Assembly (NCBI RefSeq): GCF_000420385.1 | Contig: NZ_ATUV01000002.1 | Location: 1 to 64,000, forward strand | Origin: Hippea alviniae EP5-r | GTDB lineage: Bacteria > Campylobacterota_A > Desulfurellia > Desulfurellales > Hippeaceae | Length of the DNA: 64,000 nt | Reading direction: 5' to 3' | Part shown: positions 48,226 through 56,937 of the stretch, piece after piece | Numbering within the stretch: the stretch's first letter is position 1 | Layout of the letters: each line of letters opens with the position of its first letter | Notes under the pieces: model-generated | The model's input: only the letters and a program-made list of their open reading frames with translations | Told to the model about the DNA's origin: nothing | Databases searched by the model: none | Made by a program: the position numbers and the translations under genes

Positions 48226-49250
48226 GAATAGCGTTCATACTCGATGAGATATGGGATAGTGCATTAACAAACTATGCCCTTCAAATTGCCGAATTAACAG
48301 AAAATTCAAACGAAGTATATATAATCTGTCTAAAAGACAGTTATGTTGACAAAAAAAATCAAAAAAACTCTATCCACATAAAGCCGTTAAGAAGTAAAAA
48401 CCCTTTAAGAAGTTTTGCAGGTTTTATCTCGCTTTCAAGACAACTAAAAAACATCAAACCTGATACGGTCATAACCATTCGTGGTGATGCGACATTTTTC
48501 TCCTGTCTATTAAAAAAATCCTTAAATTTTAAGCTCATACGCATATTTGGAATTGAAAAGGAATTTAGAAGCCCGCCCGAGTGCGTTGATAAGGTTATAC
48601 TGCCTTGTAATTATTTAAAAGGGTTTGTCTCAAAGAAAAGGGTAAAAAATATTGAAGTCCTAAAAAGCTTCATAGACAGAGAGAAATTTAAATTCTCTCA
48701 AAATGGAAGAAAAAGAATCAGAAAAGAACTCAATCTGAACAACAGTTTAGTTTTTGGAGCAGTGGGCAGGCTGGATAGGGTTAAAGGCTTTGACTTACTG
48801 ATAGAGAGTTTTGCAAAAGCTAACATAGAAAACTCAAAACTTGTAATCGTCGGAGAAGAAAAAGGTGTAAAAAAAGAGAACCTGATAAAACTGGCAAAAG
48901 AGCTAAACATAAACAACGATGTAATCCTTATTACAGAGAGAAGAAAAGATATAATCGATTTAATGAGTGCATTTGACATAGGTGTAATATCAAGCGTCTC
49001 AAGTGAAGTTATACCACGAGTTCTGTTTGAGTTTATGAGCATAGGCCTGCCAATTACAACAACTGATGTAGGATGCCTAAAAGAGATAGCAAACGATAGC
49101 TTTGCCGTTCTATCAGAGCCAACCGTCCATTCACTAAAATCGGCTCTCAAACAGATATCAAAAGCCGACCTTGTCAAGATGTCTGCCGCATCATTAAAGG
49201 AAGTAGAAAAGTACTCACTTCATCTGCCAGACGACATATTCATCACATAA
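48222..49250 (+). CDS. Glycosyltransferase, GT4-like
   Basis: 342 residues, GT-B fold. The donor-binding half has [20 protein letters not shown] near residue 186 and an E-x7-E motif (EVIPRVLFE) before [19 protein letters not shown]. These fit retaining GT4 enzymes that act on nucleotide sugars at the cytoplasmic membrane. The acceptor cannot be predicted; there is no lipopolysaccharide cluster here. The 3' end overlaps convergent trpA by 8 bp. Confidence 0.8.
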
Positions 49251-49944
49251 TAGAATCTAAAAATCTTCCAAATTCGCCTTTTCCGATAGACTCAACAGCC
49301 GCTGTTCCTATAACAACACCGTCGGCATATCTGCAGGCTTCGCTTATATCTTTTTTATCCCTTATTCCGAATCCTATTATTACATCCTGTTTTGAATCTT
49401 TTAAAAACTCAAGTCTCTTTATCGCATCATCGCCAAGTTTAAATTTAGAGCCCGTTGTTCCCCTGACGGAGACGAAATAGATAAAATCGTTTGCTTCTTT
49501 CTTTATTCTCTCGATCGTTTCAAAATCGCTCTCTGGTGTTGCAAAATGAACAAAACCAGTATTGTATCTCTTAAAAACCTTTTTAAATCTGCCTGACTCA
49601 ACAAAAGGAACATCTGCAAGTATAATTCCATCAACAAAATCAAACTTCTTTGCAAACTCTTCTATGCCGCCATTAAAAACAATATTGGCATAAGTCATTA
49701 TGTATAACTTCTTTTTAAATATCTCTCTAACCTTTTTTAGGCTCTCAAAAAAATCGTTTAAATTTTCTCTTTCCAACACTTTCTGCGATGCCTTTTCTAT
49801 CACATCACCATCTGCTGTTGGGTCAGAAAACGGTATGCCAATCTCCAAAAAACCAACACCCTTACTATTGCACAGCTCAACAGCCTTTAAAAACTCATCC
49901 CTATTCGGATAATCACAAACGAGATAAATGCCAACTTTACACAT
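49243..49944 (-). CDS. trpA: Tryptophan synthase alpha chain
   Basis: 233 residues from the ATG at 49944, with AGGTG 9 nt upstream; a GTG 12 nt earlier lacks a site. It cleaves indole-3-glycerol phosphate and channels indole to TrpB. Catalytic Glu and Asp lie in VGFLEIGIPFSDPTADG near residue 33. The phosphate loop VIIGFGIRDKKDI and GVVIGTAAVESI are present. At 233 aa it is somewhat short for TrpA (~260). It is separated from trpEGDCFB, lies on the other strand beyond the six-gene complex I-like operon, and has its own promoter, so it escapes the trp attenuator. Confidence 0.93.
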   Translation of the reverse strand: MCKVGIYLVCDYPNRDEFLKAVELCNSKGVGFLEIGIPFSDPTADGDVIEKASQKVLERENLNDFFESLKKVREIFKKKLYIMTYANIVFNGGIEEFAKKFDFVDGIILADVPFVESGRFKKVFKRYNTGFVHFATPESDFETIERIKKEANDFIYFVSVRGTTGSKFKLGDDAIKRLEFLKDSKQDVIIGFGIRDKKDISEACRYADGVVIGTAAVESIGKGEFGRFLDSIM

Positions 49945-49978
49945 ATTTATTAACACCTGTCTCTAAATTTAGCTTGAT

Positions 49979-50006
49979 ATTTTAACACAATCTACAAAAT
50001 ATTCAA
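49979..50006 (-). promoter_or_regulatory. Candidate promoter of trpA
   Basis: Minus strand TTGAAT (50006-50001), 16 bp, TAAAAT (49984-49979). The -35 overlaps the stop region of the preceding gene. No leader peptide or hairpin series like that of trpE is seen before trpA. Confidence 0.5.
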
Positions 50007-51886
50007 ACTCTTCCAAACAAAACAAAAATCCCCACAAAAATTACAAGTATATAAAGCAGATAAAAGTATATTTTTCCGTTCATTATGAATTTACTTATAT
50101 TGTAGCTTGTAATCTCGACAACCTTAACCAAAAAAGCATAAACAGACTCAAAAACATCCGATATAACAACAAAAGCCTCTTTGTCTCTTCTGACTTCTTT
50201 TGTTCTATACACAAATCTAAGGATATACTCAACTATAAACGAGAAGGCATTAGCAGTAAAATACTCATCATCATTTAGAGCGAGTCCACCATTCCAAGAT
50301 ACAACCTTCTTTGTTCTCTTTCTTTTGTTTAAATAAATTACAAATGGAACAAAAAACAAAGTCAAAACAACCAAGACAAAAAACGCTGGAGAAATAACAC
50401 CAAACACAGGCTTTGCGCTGGCTATAAGCCACCCATTTGGAACACCTAAAGCACCTATAACAAATTTAGCATAACCCAGTTTAACAAATACAATAGTGGC
50501 AAAAAAACTTATACCAATAATCAAACCCATAAGAAAAATCTCAGATAAATGCATAAATAAAGATGGCATAGGTTTTGCCTTTTTCTCATGATGATAACCT
50601 AAAGCAGAATAACCTATAAGTTTTATCATAGAAAAAGAAGCAAAACCCATAGCTAAAGACAAAAATACACCGCCCGTAGAACTTACAACCCTATCCAGAA
50701 TACTTTGAAACTGATAGGATTGAAAAATAGACTCAAGCAGCATCCACTCGGCCACATAACCCAAAAGAGTTGGAAAAGCACTGAAAGACAAACCAGAAAT
50801 AACAACACCAAAAGCTGGAATCTTTCCTACACTTTTATGAATACCCCTTACATTATCTATGCTCTCCTCGTGCAATTTCTCCTTCGCTTCACCTATAGAC
50901 AAAAACAAAAGCGTTTTTGCAATTGTGTGAGTGATTGATAGAATTATAGCTGTCATAAAAGCAAATTCATACAGAGTTGACTCCTTGGAAAAAGAATAAG
51001 CAAGAGCAGACAAACCCAATGCAGCCAAAATCATACCATTGTTTTCAACTGTTGAGTATGCCGGCAAAACCTTTAAACCTTTTGCCGCAGCCGCCTCCAT
51101 AGCACCCCAAAATGCCGACACACTTCCAAAGATTATAGCCAGAATCCCCCAGCTGTGGGTATAGCCTGTTATATATATAACCCTTGTCAATCCATAAACC
51201 CCCATAAGTGTTACAGGTGCACTCAACAACGCAGAAACATTTGACGGAGCCTTTGAATGAGCCTCCTTCAACCAAGTGTGAAATGGAACTATACCCATTT
51301 TTATGATAAAAGCCAAAGACGCAAAAACCAAGAACAAAACACTTTGAGAATGAACTTCAACTATCCTTAACGAATTAATTGAGCTATATAGAAAAACAAA
51401 AGCCAAAATTAAAGACATGGTTGATATCTCGCTAAAAGCAAGAAATTGAAACGCTTCTTTATAGGCACCATCGTGTTCAACCACAAGAAGATAAGACGCT
51501 ATTGTCATAATCTCCCACCCAATCAAAAACATAACACCGTCGAAAGCAGCCAAGATAAGTAGCATTCCCAACATAGCAAGATTTACAAAAATTGCCATTC
51601 TCTTTCTATAGTTCTCTCCAAAATCCATTGAGAAAACAGACACTGCTATCCAAGACACAGAAGCTATCATCAAAAACAAGCCGCCCAACTTATCAACAAA
51701 AAGCCCAGAAGATATAGAAAAAATAACAGGAAAAATCTTCTTATAAACAATCCCATTAAACTCAGCATTAAACCCTATAACAAAAGAGAGCAAAGAAGCC
51801 AAAAATGCAACAAAATAGCTTAATTTTCTATTGAAAAATCCCAAAAATGCTCCTATCAAAAACAGTCCTATGGCTAAACTCAACAT
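50003..51886 (-). CDS. HyfB/NuoL-like antiporter subunit of a complex I-related (Ehr-type) complex
   Basis: 627 residues, ~16 membrane helices, proton-conducting MrpA/NuoL family. The TM5 Glu (MFLIGWEIMTIASYLLVV near residue 125), TM7 Lys (IKMGIVPFHTWLKEAHSKAP) and TM8 His/Lys (HTIAKTLLFLSIGEA) needed for ion translocation are present. The C-terminal extension with a charged loop and last anchor resembles HyfB. Last of six genes starting at 56541; 1 bp separates it from the upstream gene. It is clearly distinct from nuoL in the same window. Confidence 0.85.
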   Translation of the reverse strand: MLSLAIGLFLIGAFLGFFNRKLSYFVAFLASLLSFVIGFNAEFNGIVYKKIFPVIFSISSGLFVDKLGGLFLMIASVSWIAVSVFSMDFGENYRKRMAIFVNLAMLGMLLILAAFDGVMFLIGWEIMTIASYLLVVEHDGAYKEAFQFLAFSEISTMSLILAFVFLYSSINSLRIVEVHSQSVLFLVFASLAFIIKMGIVPFHTWLKEAHSKAPSNVSALLSAPVTLMGVYGLTRVIYITGYTHSWGILAIIFGSVSAFWGAMEAAAAKGLKVLPAYSTVENNGMILAALGLSALAYSFSKESTLYEFAFMTAIILSITHTIAKTLLFLSIGEAKEKLHEESIDNVRGIHKSVGKIPAFGVVISGLSFSAFPTLLGYVAEWMLLESIFQSYQFQSILDRVVSSTGGVFLSLAMGFASFSMIKLIGYSALGYHHEKKAKPMPSLFMHLSEIFLMGLIIGISFFATIVFVKLGYAKFVIGALGVPNGWLIASAKPVFGVISPAFFVLVVLTLFFVPFVIYLNKRKRTKKVVSWNGGLALNDDEYFTANAFSFIVEYILRFVYRTKEVRRDKEAFVVISDVFESVYAFLVKVVEITSYNISKFIMNGKIYFYLLYILVIFVGIFVLFGRV

Positions 51887-51887
51887 A

Positions 51888-52367
51888 TTATCCCTCCATT
51901 ATGTTCAATAAAACTGAAAGTATATTCTCAGCATCAAGCTTTTTGTTGAAATACCCCACAACATTTTTCAGACCCAAATCCTTAGCGCTTATCCCAACAT
52001 CATCTTCATCTTCTATTATCACCACACCAAAAGGCTCTGGCATCTGATTAACCGTCTCTTTTAAAGGCTCAATCATCTTTTCGGAAACCTTACCCAATAC
52101 CAGCAAGATATCAGCATGTCTCGGGGAATCAGTGAAAAATATACCAAATCTATGAATATTGTACTGCGGAGAAGCCAAAGCTGATATCTCAAAGTTTAAA
52201 GAGTTATCGTTAGAAACATCGATAGGAAACACATGCAGAGATTTTTTGAAAATGCTTATCCTTTCAACGGGCTGTTCTGTTTTTTTAAAACTTTCCGTAA
52301 TCCTTTTTGATATCCCGTAAATAGTCCAAGGTTTCATCTTGCCACTCCTATCTCGCACAATCTGCAA
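51888..52367 (-). CDS. NuoB/HyfI-like subunit with no cysteines
   Basis: 159 residues. The family core is recognisable from IHRFGIFFTDSPRHADILLV near residue 73, which aligns with [20 protein letters not shown] of NuoB at 25161-25622, and from NQMPEPFGVVII against [12 protein letters not shown]. The protein has no Cys at all. The tandem-Cys segment is replaced by SNDNSLNFEI, the GSC loop by IEDEDDVGIS, and the PGCPP loop by VGYFNKKLD. It therefore cannot bind the [4Fe-4S] cluster that defines this subunit. The reading frame is intact and overlaps the upstream gene by 20 bp, so this is not a sequencing break. Confidence 0.8.
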   Translation of the reverse strand: MQIVRDRSGKMKPWTIYGISKRITESFKKTEQPVERISIFKKSLHVFPIDVSNDNSLNFEISALASPQYNIHRFGIFFTDSPRHADILLVLGKVSEKMIEPLKETVNQMPEPFGVVIIEDEDDVGISAKDLGLKNVVGYFNKKLDAENILSVLLNIMEG

Positions 52368-53574
52368 AATTTATTCCAAAGGAATCCAAGGCAAAGCTAA
52401 AATCAGTAAATATAAACCCAACTAAAGAATCAGCGAAAGCTTTATAACCAAAGACAGAAGGAGAAGATATATACACATAATCAACCACACCACCTTCAAG
52501 CTCCACATAATAAACAACCAAACCCGTTGGAGACTCAGCAGCACCTATACCAAACCCATCTACATTAACAGCATCTTGAGATATACTCACCTCTTCTCTC
52601 ACTTCATCCAAAAAAGTGCACACAATATCGCAAGATTTCAGAATTTCACATGCCCTAACTTCCATTCTTGCAAGGGCATCTCCATCTTCTCTTAAACAAA
52701 CTTGCAGGTTCTTATACACATCTTCATATCTTCTTAAATCCTCTTCAACTCCGCAAGCTCTTAAAGAGGGGCCTGTTATTCCTATACTTAGAGCTTTATC
52801 TTTATTTAAAACCGCTGTCTTATATACTCTGTCAATAAAATTATAGCTCCTTAAGGAATGCCTATACAACTCTTCAAACTTTCTTTTAAAAAATTCAACT
52901 CTCTTCTTTATCTCTACAATGTTTCTGCTATTTAAAAACTCAATACCACCTATATTGTTGATACCCTTCAAAAATCTGTTAGAAGAAAATAGTTTATTTA
53001 TCCTTAAACTCTCTTCAAATAACCATTCAAGATGAGAAGTAAGAACATTTTGAGCTGCAGCTTTAGACAACCTTGCTATAACATGGATATGATTGTAAAT
53101 CCTTTCAAGCTCAATAGCTATAGCTCTCAAAATCTTAACCTTGTCTTCAACTCCTATATTACAGGCATCCTCAACAGCCCTTGCAAAAGCCAAAGAGTGA
53201 GAAAATGCAAAATTTCCACAAACAGATTCCGAAAGTTTTAAAGCTTCAACCGGCTTTTTCCCTTTCATTAATTTTTCAATACCTCTTCTCTTATAAGAAG
53301 GGTCGATATTAACAGACAAAATTCTTTCACCATAAGTTCTTATATTAAAAATACCAGCCTCTGCAACACCAGCTGTAACAGGACCGTATCTAAAATTAAA
53401 AACACCTTCACCTTCCTTATCCTCATTGCCTATTTTCAAATCCCTATTCTTGAGCACATAATAGTTATCAAATCTCTGCTCCACTTCTTCTGCTTTTTTA
53501 ACATAAAAAGTATAACCTTCTTGTAGCAATAAAAACTCTTTACCTTCTTTCTCAATAACTCCAAGGAGCCTCAT
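52348..53574 (-). CDS. NuoD/HyfG-like large subunit lacking half of the Ni-Fe ligands
   Basis: 408 residues. The family block RYGPVTAGVAEAGIFNIRTYG near residue 62 (abbreviated) is followed by PSYKRRGIEKLMKGKKP. The N-terminal hydrogenase motif (normally CGxC) reads SVCGNFAFSH, with Cys119 kept and Phe122 in place of the second Cys. The C-terminal motif (normally DPCxxC) reads INFADCAR, with Phe403 for the first Cys and Cys406 kept. A full NiFe site cannot form. Only ~60 residues precede the NuoD-like part, so the NuoC-like domain is reduced or absent. The neighbours identify it as part of an Ehr-type complex. Confidence 0.82.
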   Translation of the reverse strand: MRLLGVIEKEGKEFLLLQEGYTFYVKKAEEVEQRFDNYYVLKNRDLKIGNEDKEGEGVFNFRYGPVTAGVAEAGIFNIRTYGERILSVNIDPSYKRRGIEKLMKGKKPVEALKLSESVCGNFAFSHSLAFARAVEDACNIGVEDKVKILRAIAIELERIYNHIHVIARLSKAAAQNVLTSHLEWLFEESLRINKLFSSNRFLKGINNIGGIEFLNSRNIVEIKKRVEFFKRKFEELYRHSLRSYNFIDRVYKTAVLNKDKALSIGITGPSLRACGVEEDLRRYEDVYKNLQVCLREDGDALARMEVRACEILKSCDIVCTFLDEVREEVSISQDAVNVDGFGIGAAESPTGLVVYYVELEGGVVDYVYISSPSVFGYKAFADSLVGFIFTDFSFALDSFGINFADCAR

Positions 53575-54953
53575 TTTATCATTCCCCCAACAAGCAAAGT
53601 GTTTATAAATCCAACTGCAAACACAACAAAAAAAGCAAGAAGAGTATTCAAGACAGGAATAAACAGCGCCATATTATCTTTGTTCTCGAAATTTCTATCG
53701 GAAATAGAAAAAGACATTCTCACGACCTTGTAATTCACAGCAAAAAAGGACAAGGTTAAAAACGCCGATAAAACTACAGTCAGAAATAATCCAAATTTTA
53801 AATATACCGCATATATAATCAAAGCTTCGCCAACAAAATTTGCGAAAGGTGGAGCTCCGGTCACGGCCAAAGACGACAGAACAAGGTTATAAGCGCCTAT
53901 AGGCATTACCTTTGAGAGCCCCCTTATTTCTGTTATGTCCCTTGTCTTGTAAACGGATAATATGTTACCAGTTGTGTAGAAAGCCGAAGATTTAGCGAAA
54001 GCATGAGCAACAATGAGAACAACAGCTCCAAGAAGAGCAAATTTATTACCCAGAGCCAAACCTATAAGTATCATTCCCATATTCTCCATAGAAGAGTATG
54101 CAAACATTCTCTTGTAAAACTTTTGAGAAACAAGAAAAACAGAAGCAAACCCAACCGTTAAAACCCCTAACACAAGCGCAAACGCTTTCACTCCCTCAAC
54201 AAAGCAAGATATCTCTATAATCCTATAAACACCAAATAGAGCAACAGGCAAAAGAACGCCGGAAAATATAGCACTAACAGGTGCTATAGCCCTTCCATGC
54301 ACATCAGGTAACCATGTATGCATAGGAAATATTCCTGCTTTTGTTGCAAAGCCTGCAACCGTAAAAGCAGCTCCCAAAGCAAAAAGTCTTGGATGAACAG
54401 GAGAAGTAATCAAAAGTTTGGTTATATAAAGCGTTTTTGAACCTGCATATATAAGCATAACGCCAATTAAAGACATAACAAGACCAACAGAAACGACTAT
54501 TATGTATCTCCACGAAGACTCAAGCGAAGCTTCGTCGTTATCTATAGCCACAAGCAAAGCACTTGTTATTGTTGTTGCTTCTATACCTACCCACAGCAAA
54601 CCCAAATTATTAAGCGAAACACTAAACAACATAGTAAGCACAAATAGATTCAAAAACATATAGTAATAACTCTTACTCAAAAGTGGTTTCTCTACATGCT
54701 TTAAATAAGTAATGGAGAATAAAGCAGTTGATAAATACACTACGGAAACAACAACCAACATTATCTTTGAAAAACCATCAATATAGAAAAAATTAGAGTG
54801 AATAGGAAAAACAAAGAGTAAAAACACTGAAGATAAAACACTACTTAAAGAAAAAACAGCAGTAAAAACTTCACTCAATCTCTCACTCTTAGATAAAGAT
54901 ACAACAGAAGCCAAAAAAGGAAATAGCATTGGCAAAAGGTAATAGTATCTCAT
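53571..54953 (-). CDS. HyfF/NuoN-like antiporter subunit
   Basis: 460 residues, ~14 membrane helices. The TM5 Glu (LGLLWVGIEATTITSALLVA near residue 118), TM7 Lys (ATKAGIFPMHTWLPDVHGRA) and HAFAKSSAFYTTGNI are present, as in ion-translocating HyfF/MrpD-type subunits. With the 627-residue protein it gives the complex two antiporter-like channels. Overlaps the HyfG-like gene by 4 bp. Confidence 0.85.
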   Translation of the reverse strand: MRYYYLLPMLFPFLASVVSLSKSERLSEVFTAVFSLSSVLSSVFLLFVFPIHSNFFYIDGFSKIMLVVVSVVYLSTALFSITYLKHVEKPLLSKSYYYMFLNLFVLTMLFSVSLNNLGLLWVGIEATTITSALLVAIDNDEASLESSWRYIIVVSVGLVMSLIGVMLIYAGSKTLYITKLLITSPVHPRLFALGAAFTVAGFATKAGIFPMHTWLPDVHGRAIAPVSAIFSGVLLPVALFGVYRIIEISCFVEGVKAFALVLGVLTVGFASVFLVSQKFYKRMFAYSSMENMGMILIGLALGNKFALLGAVVLIVAHAFAKSSAFYTTGNILSVYKTRDITEIRGLSKVMPIGAYNLVLSSLAVTGAPPFANFVGEALIIYAVYLKFGLFLTVVLSAFLTLSFFAVNYKVVRMSFSISDRNFENKDNMALFIPVLNTLLAFFVVFAVGFINTLLVGGMIK

Positions 54954-54958
54954 GGCTT

Positions 54959-55594
54959 TTACCCCTTAAACTCTTCAAATTCTTCGGAAATATCAGAAAC
55001 ATAGTTTTCCCTTAGTCTCATTATTATTCCAGAAATCATTACAATTCCTATCAAATCAAGGAGTATTCCACCTTCAATAATAAGTGGAAGCTCTGGAAAC
55101 ATATAGCCAGCAAATAAGAAAAGACTATTTTCCATCACCATGTATCCTATAAGCTGAACAAAAGCATTGTTTCTTGAAATTATCAAAAATATACCCTGAA
55201 GAATCAGAGCAATAGGGATGGAACCTGCCTTCGCATAGGTTATGTCATACAAAGTGAAATTGTATAGAACATAAGCAACAATAACTAACAACAAAGAAAT
55301 AATTATCGAAGCCGCTGTCGGTATCACATGCTTTGGCTCTCTGTCCTTGTAATAAGAATTAAGTTTTTTAAGCATATAGCCTGGAATAAACAAGCCCCTT
55401 ACTGCAATTGTTAGAAATGCTAAAACCAAAAGACTTGTATTATTCAAATACACTCCATTAGCAAATAGAAAAAATGCTATAGAAATCGAAGATATAGCAA
55501 ATGTCATAATGATTTTTTTAAGATAAACCTGCCACTGCATAAAAATCACAAGAACAATTTGCAAAAAACCAATAATTAGATATACATCTTTCAT
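54959..55594 (-). CDS. HyfE-like membrane subunit (NuoK-related)
   Basis: 211 residues, ~6 membrane helices. LIGYMVMENSLFLFAGYMFP near residue 147 carries the buried Glu typical of HyfE/NuoK. The short region FIPGYMLKKLNSYYKDREP is the HyfE-type loop. It overlaps the HyfC-like gene by 4 bp and precedes the HyfF-like gene by 5 bp. Confidence 0.82.
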   Translation of the reverse strand: MKDVYLIIGFLQIVLVIFMQWQVYLKKIIMTFAISSISIAFFLFANGVYLNNTSLLVLAFLTIAVRGLFIPGYMLKKLNSYYKDREPKHVIPTAASIIISLLLVIVAYVLYNFTLYDITYAKAGSIPIALILQGIFLIISRNNAFVQLIGYMVMENSLFLFAGYMFPELPLIIEGGILLDLIGIVMISGIIMRLRENYVSDISEEFEEFKG

Positions 55595-56541
55595 AGCGAA
55601 CCTCCGGTTGTGTAAAATACAACAATAGCAAGAAGGGCAAACGAGAACGCAACAGCAACATACTCAAAATTTTTAAACAATTTATATTTCGATACAGTTG
55701 ACTGAATAGTTGCAAATATAAATGTCAAAATTATCATTTTAAGCAAATGTATGAGACTGTAAATCAAAACGGCCATAAAGCTCACCTTCATAGGAACCCA
55801 AAAGGGAACAAGAAAATCATTCAAGAATACACTCATAAGTAAAAATTGTTTTATATACCCGCCCCATTTCATAAGAGCTAATTCTGTGCCAGAATACTCC
55901 ATTTCTATTGCCTGATCTATCATTCCAAATTCATTATTGGAGTGAGATTCTATAGGCAACTTACCTGTTTCCAACAACAGAGCCATAAAGAAAGCAAAAA
56001 CAACAAACCAGTGAACCAAAGAAAGATACCAATGAGTTGATGTTTGAAGAACATTGTTTACGGCATAAGGGTTATTGGTATGAGATATAACACCGAAGGA
56101 GATAAATATCAAAACCAGTATAGGCTCGGCTAAAGCCCCTATAGATGATGCCCTTGAAACACCGAGATGAGCATAATTGCTTCTACTATCTAAAGATGCG
56201 AGTTTCTTTAAAACCCCGATAGCGCCAAAAACCAATCCACCACCAATAAAGTCAACAACAGGCCCAAATGTCAAAGGAAAAGCCGTAACAATAGGCAAAA
56301 CCAAAGTCAAAAACAGATAGAGAGTGAATGTAATATAAGGAACAATCTGAAATAAAGGCGATGCAACTTCTGGAACAACGCTCTGTTTTCTAAAAAGCTT
56401 GAATAAATCGTAATAGGGCTGAAAAATCGAAGGGCCAACTTTGGACTCATACCTTTCGGTAAGTTTAGCGAATATACCCGCTATAAGTGGAGCAAGGATA
56501 ATAACATACAACAGCTGAAATAGACTCAGGGCAAACAACAT
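55591..56541 (-). CDS. HyfC/NuoH-like membrane subunit
   Basis: 316 residues from the ATG at 56541, which has GAGAGGTGG just upstream; a frame extending further would run into the riboswitch. ESKVGPSIFQPYYDLFKLF near residue 28 and LLETGKLPIESHSNNEFGM near 190 with EMEYSGTELALMKWG are HyfC/NuoH hallmarks, including the acidic loop that faces the peripheral arm. First gene of the six-gene operon and directly downstream of the fluoride riboswitch. Confidence 0.88.
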   Translation of the reverse strand: MLFALSLFQLLYVIILAPLIAGIFAKLTERYESKVGPSIFQPYYDLFKLFRKQSVVPEVASPLFQIVPYITFTLYLFLTLVLPIVTAFPLTFGPVVDFIGGGLVFGAIGVLKKLASLDSRSNYAHLGVSRASSIGALAEPILVLIFISFGVISHTNNPYAVNNVLQTSTHWYLSLVHWFVVFAFFMALLLETGKLPIESHSNNEFGMIDQAIEMEYSGTELALMKWGGYIKQFLLMSVFLNDFLVPFWVPMKVSFMAVLIYSLIHLLKMIILTFIFATIQSTVSKYKLFKNFEYVAVAFSFALLAIVVFYTTGGSL

Positions 56542-56580
56542 TTTGCCACCTCTCAATAACAATATTTTATATATGGTCAG

Positions 56581-56633
56581 ATAGGAGTCATTGGCTCGTG
56601 AAGAGCGATTAAAGGCGAACTCCACCGCCTTTA
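56581..56633 (-). ncRNA. Fluoride riboswitch (crcB-type) aptamer
   Basis: On the minus strand, P1 is UAAAGGCG (56633-56626) with CGCCUUUA (56617-56610). Its loop GUGGAGUU contains GGAGU (56623-56619), which pairs with ACUCC (56588-56584) to form the pseudoknot. P3 is GCUC/GAGC (56606-56603 with 56597-56594). The conserved 3' segment AAUGACUCCUAU follows directly. This matches the GGCGAUGG...CGCC...AUGACUCCUA pattern of fluoride riboswitches. The equivalents of linchpin A40-U48 (A591, U583 of 56xxx) are kept. The usual A6/U38 pair is here G (56625) and C (56593). It lies between a consensus promoter and the HyfC-like gene. No intrinsic terminator follows, so control may be at translation. Function is inferred from sequence and fold. 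Confidence 0.78.
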
Positions 56634-56645
56634 AATCGTGGCACC

Positions 56646-56718: not shown

Positions 56719-56793
56719 ATGATGAGTGAGTTTATGTTCTTAAGTCTAAAAAGAAATACCATACTAAATAACTGGTGGTGGCAGGATAGCTAA
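56719..56793 (+). CDS. trpL: trp leader peptide with three consecutive Trp codons
   Basis: A 24-codon frame beginning ATG ATG and ending in NNWWWQDS, then TAA. TGG TGG TGG occupies 56773-56781. Alternative in-frame starts are 56722 and 56734. No good ribosome binding site is visible and the promoter places the mRNA 5' end at or near the first ATG, so translation may be leaderless. The Trp codons overlap segment 1 of the attenuator, so ribosome stalling at low charged tRNA-Trp would control trpE expression. Confidence 0.85.
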   Translation: MMSEFMFLSLKRNTILNNWWWQDS

Positions 56794-56858
56794 GGCTACC
56801 CTGCCTTTTTAATTAAACAGTAAAGCCGTCTTCTTGGGCAGCTTGCTGGCAGGGTAGC
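56780..56858 (+). promoter_or_regulatory. trp attenuator segments 1, 2 and 3
   Basis: Segment 1 GGCAGGATAGC (56780-56790) overlaps the last Trp codon and pairs with segment 2 GCTACCCTGCC (56795-56805) at 10 of 11 positions. T5 (56806-56810) follows, so this hairpin may pause or terminate. Segment 3 GGCAGGGTAGC (56848-56858) pairs with segment 2 at all 11 positions. A ribosome stalled on the Trp codons covers segment 1 and lets 2:3 form. A ribosome at the stop codon covers segment 2 and frees segment 3 for the terminator. Confidence 0.85.
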
Positions 56859-56889
56859 CAGCAGGACTGCTTGGGAAGGCGGTTTTTTT
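56825..56889 (+). terminator. trp attenuator terminator (segments 3 and 4)
   Basis: Outer stem GCCGTCTTC (56825-56833) with GAAGGCGGT (56875-56883), middle GCAG/CTGC (56838-56841 with 56867-56870), inner GCTGGC/GCCAGC (56845-56850 with 56857-56862), then seven T (56883-56889). Segment 3 lies in the inner hairpin, so the 2:3 antiterminator destroys this structure. Confidence 0.85.
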
Positions 56890-56894
56890 ATTTA

Positions 56895-56937
56895 GGCCGT
56901 CTTTCTAAGCAGTTGCCTTAGGGAGACGGCCTTTTTT
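56895..56937 (+). terminator. Second tandem terminator before trpE
   Basis: Perfect 8-bp stem GGCCGTCT/AGACGGCC (56895-56902 with 56924-56931) with inner CTAAG/CTTAG (56905-56909 with 56917-56921), then six T (56932-56937). It lies after the first attenuator terminator and 18 bp before the trpE ATG. Its 5' arm can instead pair with GAAGGCGG (56875-56882) of the previous terminator (8 bp, two of them G-U). Confidence 0.8.

Follow-up and report, generated by a model that had tools for sequence, protein, structure and literature searches.

What does a fluoride riboswitch control when the genes behind it resemble a membrane-bound hydrogenase? The question is raised by a 64,000-nucleotide (nt) stretch of the Hippea alviniae EP5-r genome (contig NZ_ATUV01000002.1, positions 1 to 64,000; hereafter the window), in which a fluoride aptamer is followed by six minus-strand genes at 56541-50003 related to subunits of hydrogenase 4 and complex I. 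The association of fluoride riboswitches with "formate hydrogenlyase" is itself already known: formate hydrogen lyase genes were listed after the crcB motif by Weinberg in 2010 (PMC2864571), a 2024 review explains the link as anaerobic formate metabolism (PMC11139923), and the initial annotation of the window, made from the sequence alone, had named the association correctly. As described below, the operon belongs to a separate clade, dedicated to fluoride riboswitches, in which the catalytic subunit has lost its nickel ligands and the membrane arm retains its proton-path residues.

A fluoride riboswitch in front of a six-gene operon

A covariance-model search (cmscan) finds a full-length match to the fluoride riboswitch family RF01734 at 56638-56575 (minus strand), scoring 46.2 bits (E 1.2e-9) against a gathering score of 34, so that the riboswitch proposed in the initial annotation is borne out by a significant hit. 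The aptamer includes the AUGACUCCUA segment, and the 3' strand of its pseudoknot, AUGACUCC, lies at 56591-56584. Because the same aptamer recurs before homologous operons of relatives, both in the phylum and beyond it, a chance match is excluded. The consensus promoter that had been claimed upstream is also present: a sigma-70-type promoter at 56674-56646 (minus strand) can be read from the sequence as TTGACT (-35, 56674-56669), a 17-nt spacer and TATAAA (-10, 56651-56646), and was skipped by our consensus promoter scanner because the scanner requires a -10 element ending in T. The first gene likely starts at ATG 56541, with GAGAGG upstream and 33 nt behind the 3' end of the aptamer; the GTG start at 56625 given by the open reading frame finder falls within the aptamer. 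Judged by its sequence, the RNA would bind fluoride.

The anatomy described at the outset, namely aptamer, promoter and genes for HyfC-, HyfE-, HyfF-, HyfG-, HyfI- and HyfB-like subunits, proved right on every point, the subunit identities following in this order from Pfam and NCBIfam matches. Three of the junctions between the six genes overlap and two have gaps of 1-5 nt. The first gene (55591-56541) encodes a NuoH/HyfC-like membrane anchor of 316 residues (Pfam NADHdh, E 1.6e-29) that keeps the E-channel carboxylates, and the second (54959-55594) a HyfE-like membrane subunit of 211 residues (NCBIfam hydrogenase 4 membrane subunit, E 6.2e-12). It is followed by a HyfF-like antiporter-like subunit of 460 residues (53571-54953; NCBIfam HyfF, E 1.8e-119) with Glu125, Lys205, Lys281 and Lys321 in place, a large subunit of the NuoD/MbhL/HyfG type (408 residues, 52348-53574) and a small subunit of the NuoB/MbhJ/HyfI type (159 residues, 51888-52367), the real start of which is probably ATG 52337. 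Last comes a HyfB-like antiporter-like subunit of 627 residues (50003-51886; NCBIfam HyfB, E 7.3e-105) with Glu125, Lys196, Lys272 and Lys324 kept, and it is this last position of HyfB that marks the clade described in the next section.

None of the six genes encodes an electron-input subunit (ferredoxin-like or formate dehydrogenase). The operon has neither the NADH module NuoE/F/G nor NuoI and is thus not a complex I; nor is it an Mrp antiporter, its antiporter subunits being of the HyfB/HyfF type only, with no MrpC/E/F/G found together with MrpA and MrpD. No operon gene carries a CRCB domain or encodes a CLC protein with GREGT/V.

A clade specific to fluoride riboswitches

The comparison covered one 386-genome domain-wide sample (searched with a HyfC alignment), a plasmid collection and two small phyla. 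Riboswitch and operon occur together in 20 genomes of the window's phylum, and the remaining five of the 25 have neither. Of the 33 riboswitch sites in this phylum 31 were examined; 20 stand before the operon and 11 before a gene for a dynamin-like GTPase, and an exporter gene directly behind the riboswitch was seen at none of the 31. Scanning genome contigs with one protein returned close relatives only. Outside the phylum, six genomes share the window's gene order (HyfC, HyfE, HyfF, large subunit, small subunit, HyfB; C-E-F-L-S-B), and RF01734 lies directly before HyfC in 6/6, one of them slightly below the gathering score; in a further set, from the phylum of genome G183, 12 of 15 are above gathering and the other three are weak matches at the same position. 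The other loci that were read (L111-L140) have the order B-C-E-F-L-S or S-B-C-E-F-L, with an occasional shortened or contig-cut variant, and no riboswitch precedes the complex in any of them, even where the same genome has one elsewhere.

In trees of concatenated subunits all fluoride-type rows fall on one side of a single branch, supported by 99 in a Shimodaira-Hasegawa-like approximate likelihood ratio test (SH-aLRT) in a quick analysis of four subunits and by 100/100 in a careful one of HyfC plus the large subunit; the trees are unrooted, and ordinary energy-converting hydrogenase-related (Ehr) complexes and hydrogenases lie on the opposite side of the branch. Wherever upstream sequence was available for an operon of the order C-E-F-L-S-B, in the genome sample or on plasmids, it contained the riboswitch. 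Gene set, gene order and clade are specific to fluoride riboswitches.

The same order C-E-F-L-S-B was found by tblastn on plasmids of Burkholderia multivorans, Caballeronia and Mycobacterium branderi, in islands that each hold three to four fluoride riboswitches within 19 kb. Pyrophosphatase, MutS, dynamin and DUF190 genes are neighbours in the Burkholderia island, and enolase, DUF190 and universal stress protein genes in the Mycobacterium island. By guilt by association, such company of fluoride-riboswitch genes links the complex with fluoride without recourse to the window. An Alicyclobacillus plasmid with six riboswitches, CrcB and DUF190 carries a lone large-subunit-like protein behind a riboswitch of its own (L069 8396-10098), with no membrane subunits nearby. 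Small HAD-family proteins are encoded near the operon in distant lineages (L055 5261-5755, L056 10094-10588, L067 3848-4318); HAD proteins are known to accompany fluoride riboswitches.

Loss of metal sites in the catalytic subunits

The large subunit of the window, pseudo-catalytic by its alignments and by its fold match to HycE of formate hydrogenlyase (FHL) and to MbhL, has lost three of the four nickel cysteines: the first nickel motif, MCGIC in Pyrococcus MbhL, reads VCGNF (C119-G-N-F122), and the second pair, CYSC in true hydrogenases, is replaced by NFAD (GINFADCAR). The 159-residue small subunit, a pseudo-electron-transfer protein with a fold match to MbhJ, contains no cysteine at all, and GSCNGCDIEI of MbhJ aligns with its SNDNSLNFEI; as read from the sequence, it therefore cannot carry a proximal [4Fe-4S] cluster with the usual ligands. 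The loss of nickel ligands is clade-wide, no fluoride-type member having a complete catalytic cysteine pair, whereas the true hydrogenases of the same sample (L114 and L128) keep both. The loss of Fe-S ligands extends over a 12-row subclade that includes the window (support 96/92). Two Ehr loci without a fluoride riboswitch, L119 and L071, also lack the small-subunit Fe-S cysteines, so that cofactors may have been lost repeatedly within the superfamily. The best fold matches of the AlphaFold models are MbhJ for the small and HycE/MbhL for the large subunit, suggesting that the fold is retained despite the loss of the cofactor sites.

These observations bear directly on the published label. That the operon encodes a true formate hydrogenlyase or group 4 [NiFe] hydrogenase, supporting fermentation under fluoride, is in keeping with the name under which such genes are listed (PMC2864571; PMC11139923) and with the homology of the subunits, but the catalytic cysteine pairs are missing from every fluoride-type member and the operon contains no formate dehydrogenase or ferredoxin subunit; the sequence refutes this explanation for the window, and in general we give it hardly any weight. 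E. coli formate hydrogenlyase and hydrogenase 4 (Hyc, Hyf) provide the best-matching subunit names, yet the window complex has neither a NiFe site nor an Fe-S site in its small subunit, and HycB/HycF and formate dehydrogenase are missing. Of the hydrogenase/complex I label in the initial annotation, the subunit homology accordingly stands; as a description of function the label is misleading, because the nickel and Fe-S ligands are gone and the operon belongs to a separate, fluoride-dedicated clade.

The complex could also still be a redox enzyme with an unknown donor or acceptor, an Mbx/Mbs-like Ehr that would be switched on under fluoride to restore the proton-motive force. Its fold and subunits match those of MBH, MBS and FHL, and some members retain the Fe-S cysteines of the small subunit along with a fused ferredoxin-like domain. 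Set against this are the small subunit of the window without cysteine and its large subunit without the nickel set, the absence of an electron-input gene from the operon, and a subclade that has lost the Fe-S ligands and retains both operon and riboswitch; we consider a remaining redox function improbable. Of the solved structures, Pyrococcus MBH and MBS (Mbh, Mbx) come nearest in sequence and are among the nearest in fold (6cfw, 6u8y), but they are redox enzymes, MBH with its nickel and Fe-S ligands in place, and the window complex lacks the Mrp-type modules found in both.

Also close to the window complex are the Ehr complexes, which have been described without nickel ligands and with unknown function (PMC6349859, PMC10284858). 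The window operon shares with them the hydrogenase-4-like subunit set, that is, group 4 hydrogenase-like large and small subunits without nickel ligands and a HyfB/C/E/F-type membrane arm, but has neither the Fe-S electron path typical of Ehr nor the histidine of the beta1-beta2 loop. Ordinary Ehr complexes in our sample have HyfB before HyfC, GPxHAG..EPGHF in the large subunit, mostly Fe-S cysteines in the small subunit and no riboswitch; the fluoride type, in contrast, has HyfB last, has lost the first loop histidine in 21/21 and stands behind a riboswitch.

A retained proton path

Residues were compared in an alignment of 54 loci (21 fluoride-type, 33 others). HyfF E125, K205, K281 and K321 are present in 20/20 fluoride-type members, as are HyfB E125, K196 and K324; in HyfC, E204 is found in all of them and E139, E191 and E215 in nearly all. 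In ordinary relatives the beta1-beta2 loop of the large subunit, a loop found at the junction of soluble arm and membrane arm in FHL and complex I (PMC9474812), has the sequence GPxHAGxxEPGHF. Its first histidine is present in 33/33 others versus 0/21 fluoride-type members and its second in 32/33 versus 2/21, the two positions being T67 and I75 in the window; the acidic residue of the loop is mostly kept in the fluoride type. Measurements have shown that antiporter modules isolated from complex I conduct protons without redox (PMC11496545). Those modules (Nqo12, Nqo13) share with the present complex antiporter-like subunits apart from redox chemistry, but are engineered fragments, whereas the window complex would be a natural redox-free complex.

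The whole membrane arms with their intact proton paths, kept over large distances, also argue against a role other than ion transport in which the subunits, as scaffold or inhibitor, would bind and regulate another membrane complex, such as respiratory complex I, under fluoride; for a scaffold such arms would be needless. This explanation draws on a further NuoD-like subunit in the window's genome (C2:23404-24216), on the resemblance of the dead large/small module to a pseudo-enzyme and on the lone large subunit of the Alicyclobacillus plasmid; we regard it as quite improbable.

Known exporters in genomes with the operon

None of the 25 genomes in the window's phylum contains CrcB (PF02537). 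Fluoride-type CLC proteins have the motif GREGT/V (PMC11139923), and there is no CLC-F in the window's genome, all five of its CLC proteins being of the chloride type (GREGP); CLC motifs of other members of the phylum were read in part. Elsewhere, genomes G273, G183 and G230 each have a single riboswitch, before the operon, and no CrcB, with GREGP in the CLC proteins of G273 and G183 and no CLC in G230. These cases speak for a complex that itself exports fluoride, as F- or as hydrogen fluoride (HF) with H+, and thus for a third, multi-subunit exporter class beside Fluc and CLC-F. However, three other lineages with the operon (G116, G120, G150) have CrcB, the complex has no known fluoride-binding motif, its conserved residues are those of proton transport, and an exporter of an unknown family without a riboswitch would escape our searches. 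A lower frequency of CrcB in operon carriers than in other riboswitch genomes is not supported, CrcB being missing from 3/6 and 39/67, respectively, so that the lack of an exporter is a property of some lineages and not a statistical association. Export by the complex is possible and not indicated by these statistics, and we hold it to be unlikely; that the complex is the primary fluoride resistance of a phylum without Fluc and apparently without CLC-F, a metal-stripped redox pump moving F- or HF as a third exporter class, we hold to be slightly less likely still.

As a separate observation, in three relatives from the same taxonomic order (G001-G003), a chloride-type CLC gene diverges from and adjoins the fluoride-type operon (L055 12724-13920, L056 1247-3085, L057 1246-3163), the gene in L057 being broken.

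A putative translational switch

The leader of the window contains a putative translational expression platform (56549-56593, minus strand), in which RNA folding suggests pairing of CAAUGAC (56593-56587), which overlaps the aptamer's 3' strand, with GUUAUUG (56560-56554), immediately ahead of the ribosome-binding site GAGAGG (56554-56549). Several relatives show strong pairing, over 7-15 bp, between the pseudoknot's 3' strand and an arm on or just before the ribosome-binding site; many of these pairings have p < 0.01 versus shuffles, and the combined p is ~1e-12 over 12 leaders, which are related and hence not independent. The platform is convincing in relatives and not significant in the window itself. 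The 33-nt spacer leaves little room for a terminator. A pairing of the 5' leader with the ribosome-binding site, also suggested by RNA folding of the window, was dropped because the predicted transcription start lies downstream of most of the 5' segment. In the mechanism that we propose, cytoplasmic fluoride (with Mg2+) would stabilise the pseudoknot of the aptamer, which would hold the 3' strand and release the region of the ribosome-binding site, turning translation on.

A proposed complex freed from redox chemistry

We read the operon as encoding a fluoride-induced complex of the complex I/Ehr superfamily that is freed from redox chemistry and moves H+ or cations to repair pH, membrane potential or ion balance, a reading whose chances we put at about even. 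A natural, redox-free descendant of an Ehr-type pump would be the most economical explanation, and transport activity may be presumed from the conserved residues. The six proteins would assemble into an L-shaped complex, the membrane arm of which would draw on existing ion gradients to conduct H+, possibly against Na+ or K+; the dead large/small module would serve as a structural cap or gate and not as an electron-driven piston; and the task would be to bring the pH of the cytoplasm, the membrane potential or the ion balance back to normal once HF enters and dissociates. Among the gene classes behind fluoride riboswitches, Na+/H+ antiporters rank second in frequency (PMC11139923). Like the riboswitch and the operon, the membrane complex induced by fluoride and equipped with two antiporter-like channels that the initial annotation put forward stands as an idea, while the role it suggested, in pH or ion balance or in moving ions linked to export, we can only infer.

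It should be noted that three observations weigh against this reading. The leader pairing of the window, taken alone, gives p 0.26. Small-subunit Fe-S cysteines are present outside the window's subclade (Burkholderia, Caballeronia, L107, L109, L110), and redox work is possible in these members. Finally, the AlphaFold models behind the retained fold are of moderate confidence, with predicted TM-scores (pTM) of 0.70 and 0.74 for the two subunits and shallow alignments.

Other riboswitch-controlled and neighbouring genes

The window's genome has a second fluoride riboswitch, before a gene for a dynamin-like GTPase. Dynamin-linked sites were noted at C1:1051184-1051247 (plus strand) in G000 and L003 3253-5010, and also in L016, L017, L020-L022, L031, L036 and L038-L040; the bacterial dynamin-like GTPase is under a riboswitch across the phylum, and in L056 the riboswitch heads a gene run with two MutS-like proteins and enolase. 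No paper treating fluoride, riboswitch and dynamin jointly was found in the open-access literature.

Next to the operon, a trpA-like gene (49243-49956) lies on the minus strand as well, 46 nt beyond the HyfB-like gene and outside the divergent trp operon. Read-through from the fluoride-controlled promoter may reach it; co-regulation with the operon was rejected, the arrangement being conserved in 0/11 related loci. On the plus strand, a trp attenuator (56719-56932) lies ahead of trpE, with a leader peptide, MMSEFMFLSLKRNTILNNWWWQDS, containing three Trp codons (56719-56793) and a strong terminator at 56894-56932.

Implications

Known fluoride riboswitch regulons (crcB, CLC-F, NhaA-type antiporters, enolase, pyrophosphatase, mutS and "formate hydrogen lyase") share with that of the window the RNA class and the label on the list; the window regulon differs in that it has no known exporter and in that the listed enzyme is a redox-dead, transporter-like complex. 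We found no paper that joins Ehr complexes with fluoride-riboswitch genes in the open-access literature, subscription journals lying outside the search, and the clade, its loss of cofactors, the gene-order marker and a phylum without known exporter appear to be new. "Formate hydrogenlyase" has been on the riboswitch list since 2010 and has been taken to reflect a change in fermentation; by their sequences, these genes form a separate clade unable to make hydrogen, which points to ion transport as the function. A natural relative of complex I without redox cofactors would be a clean system in which to study ion movement through the membrane arm without oxidation, and the phylum of Hippea alviniae is marked out by a riboswitch-controlled fluoride defence that uses none of the known exporters.

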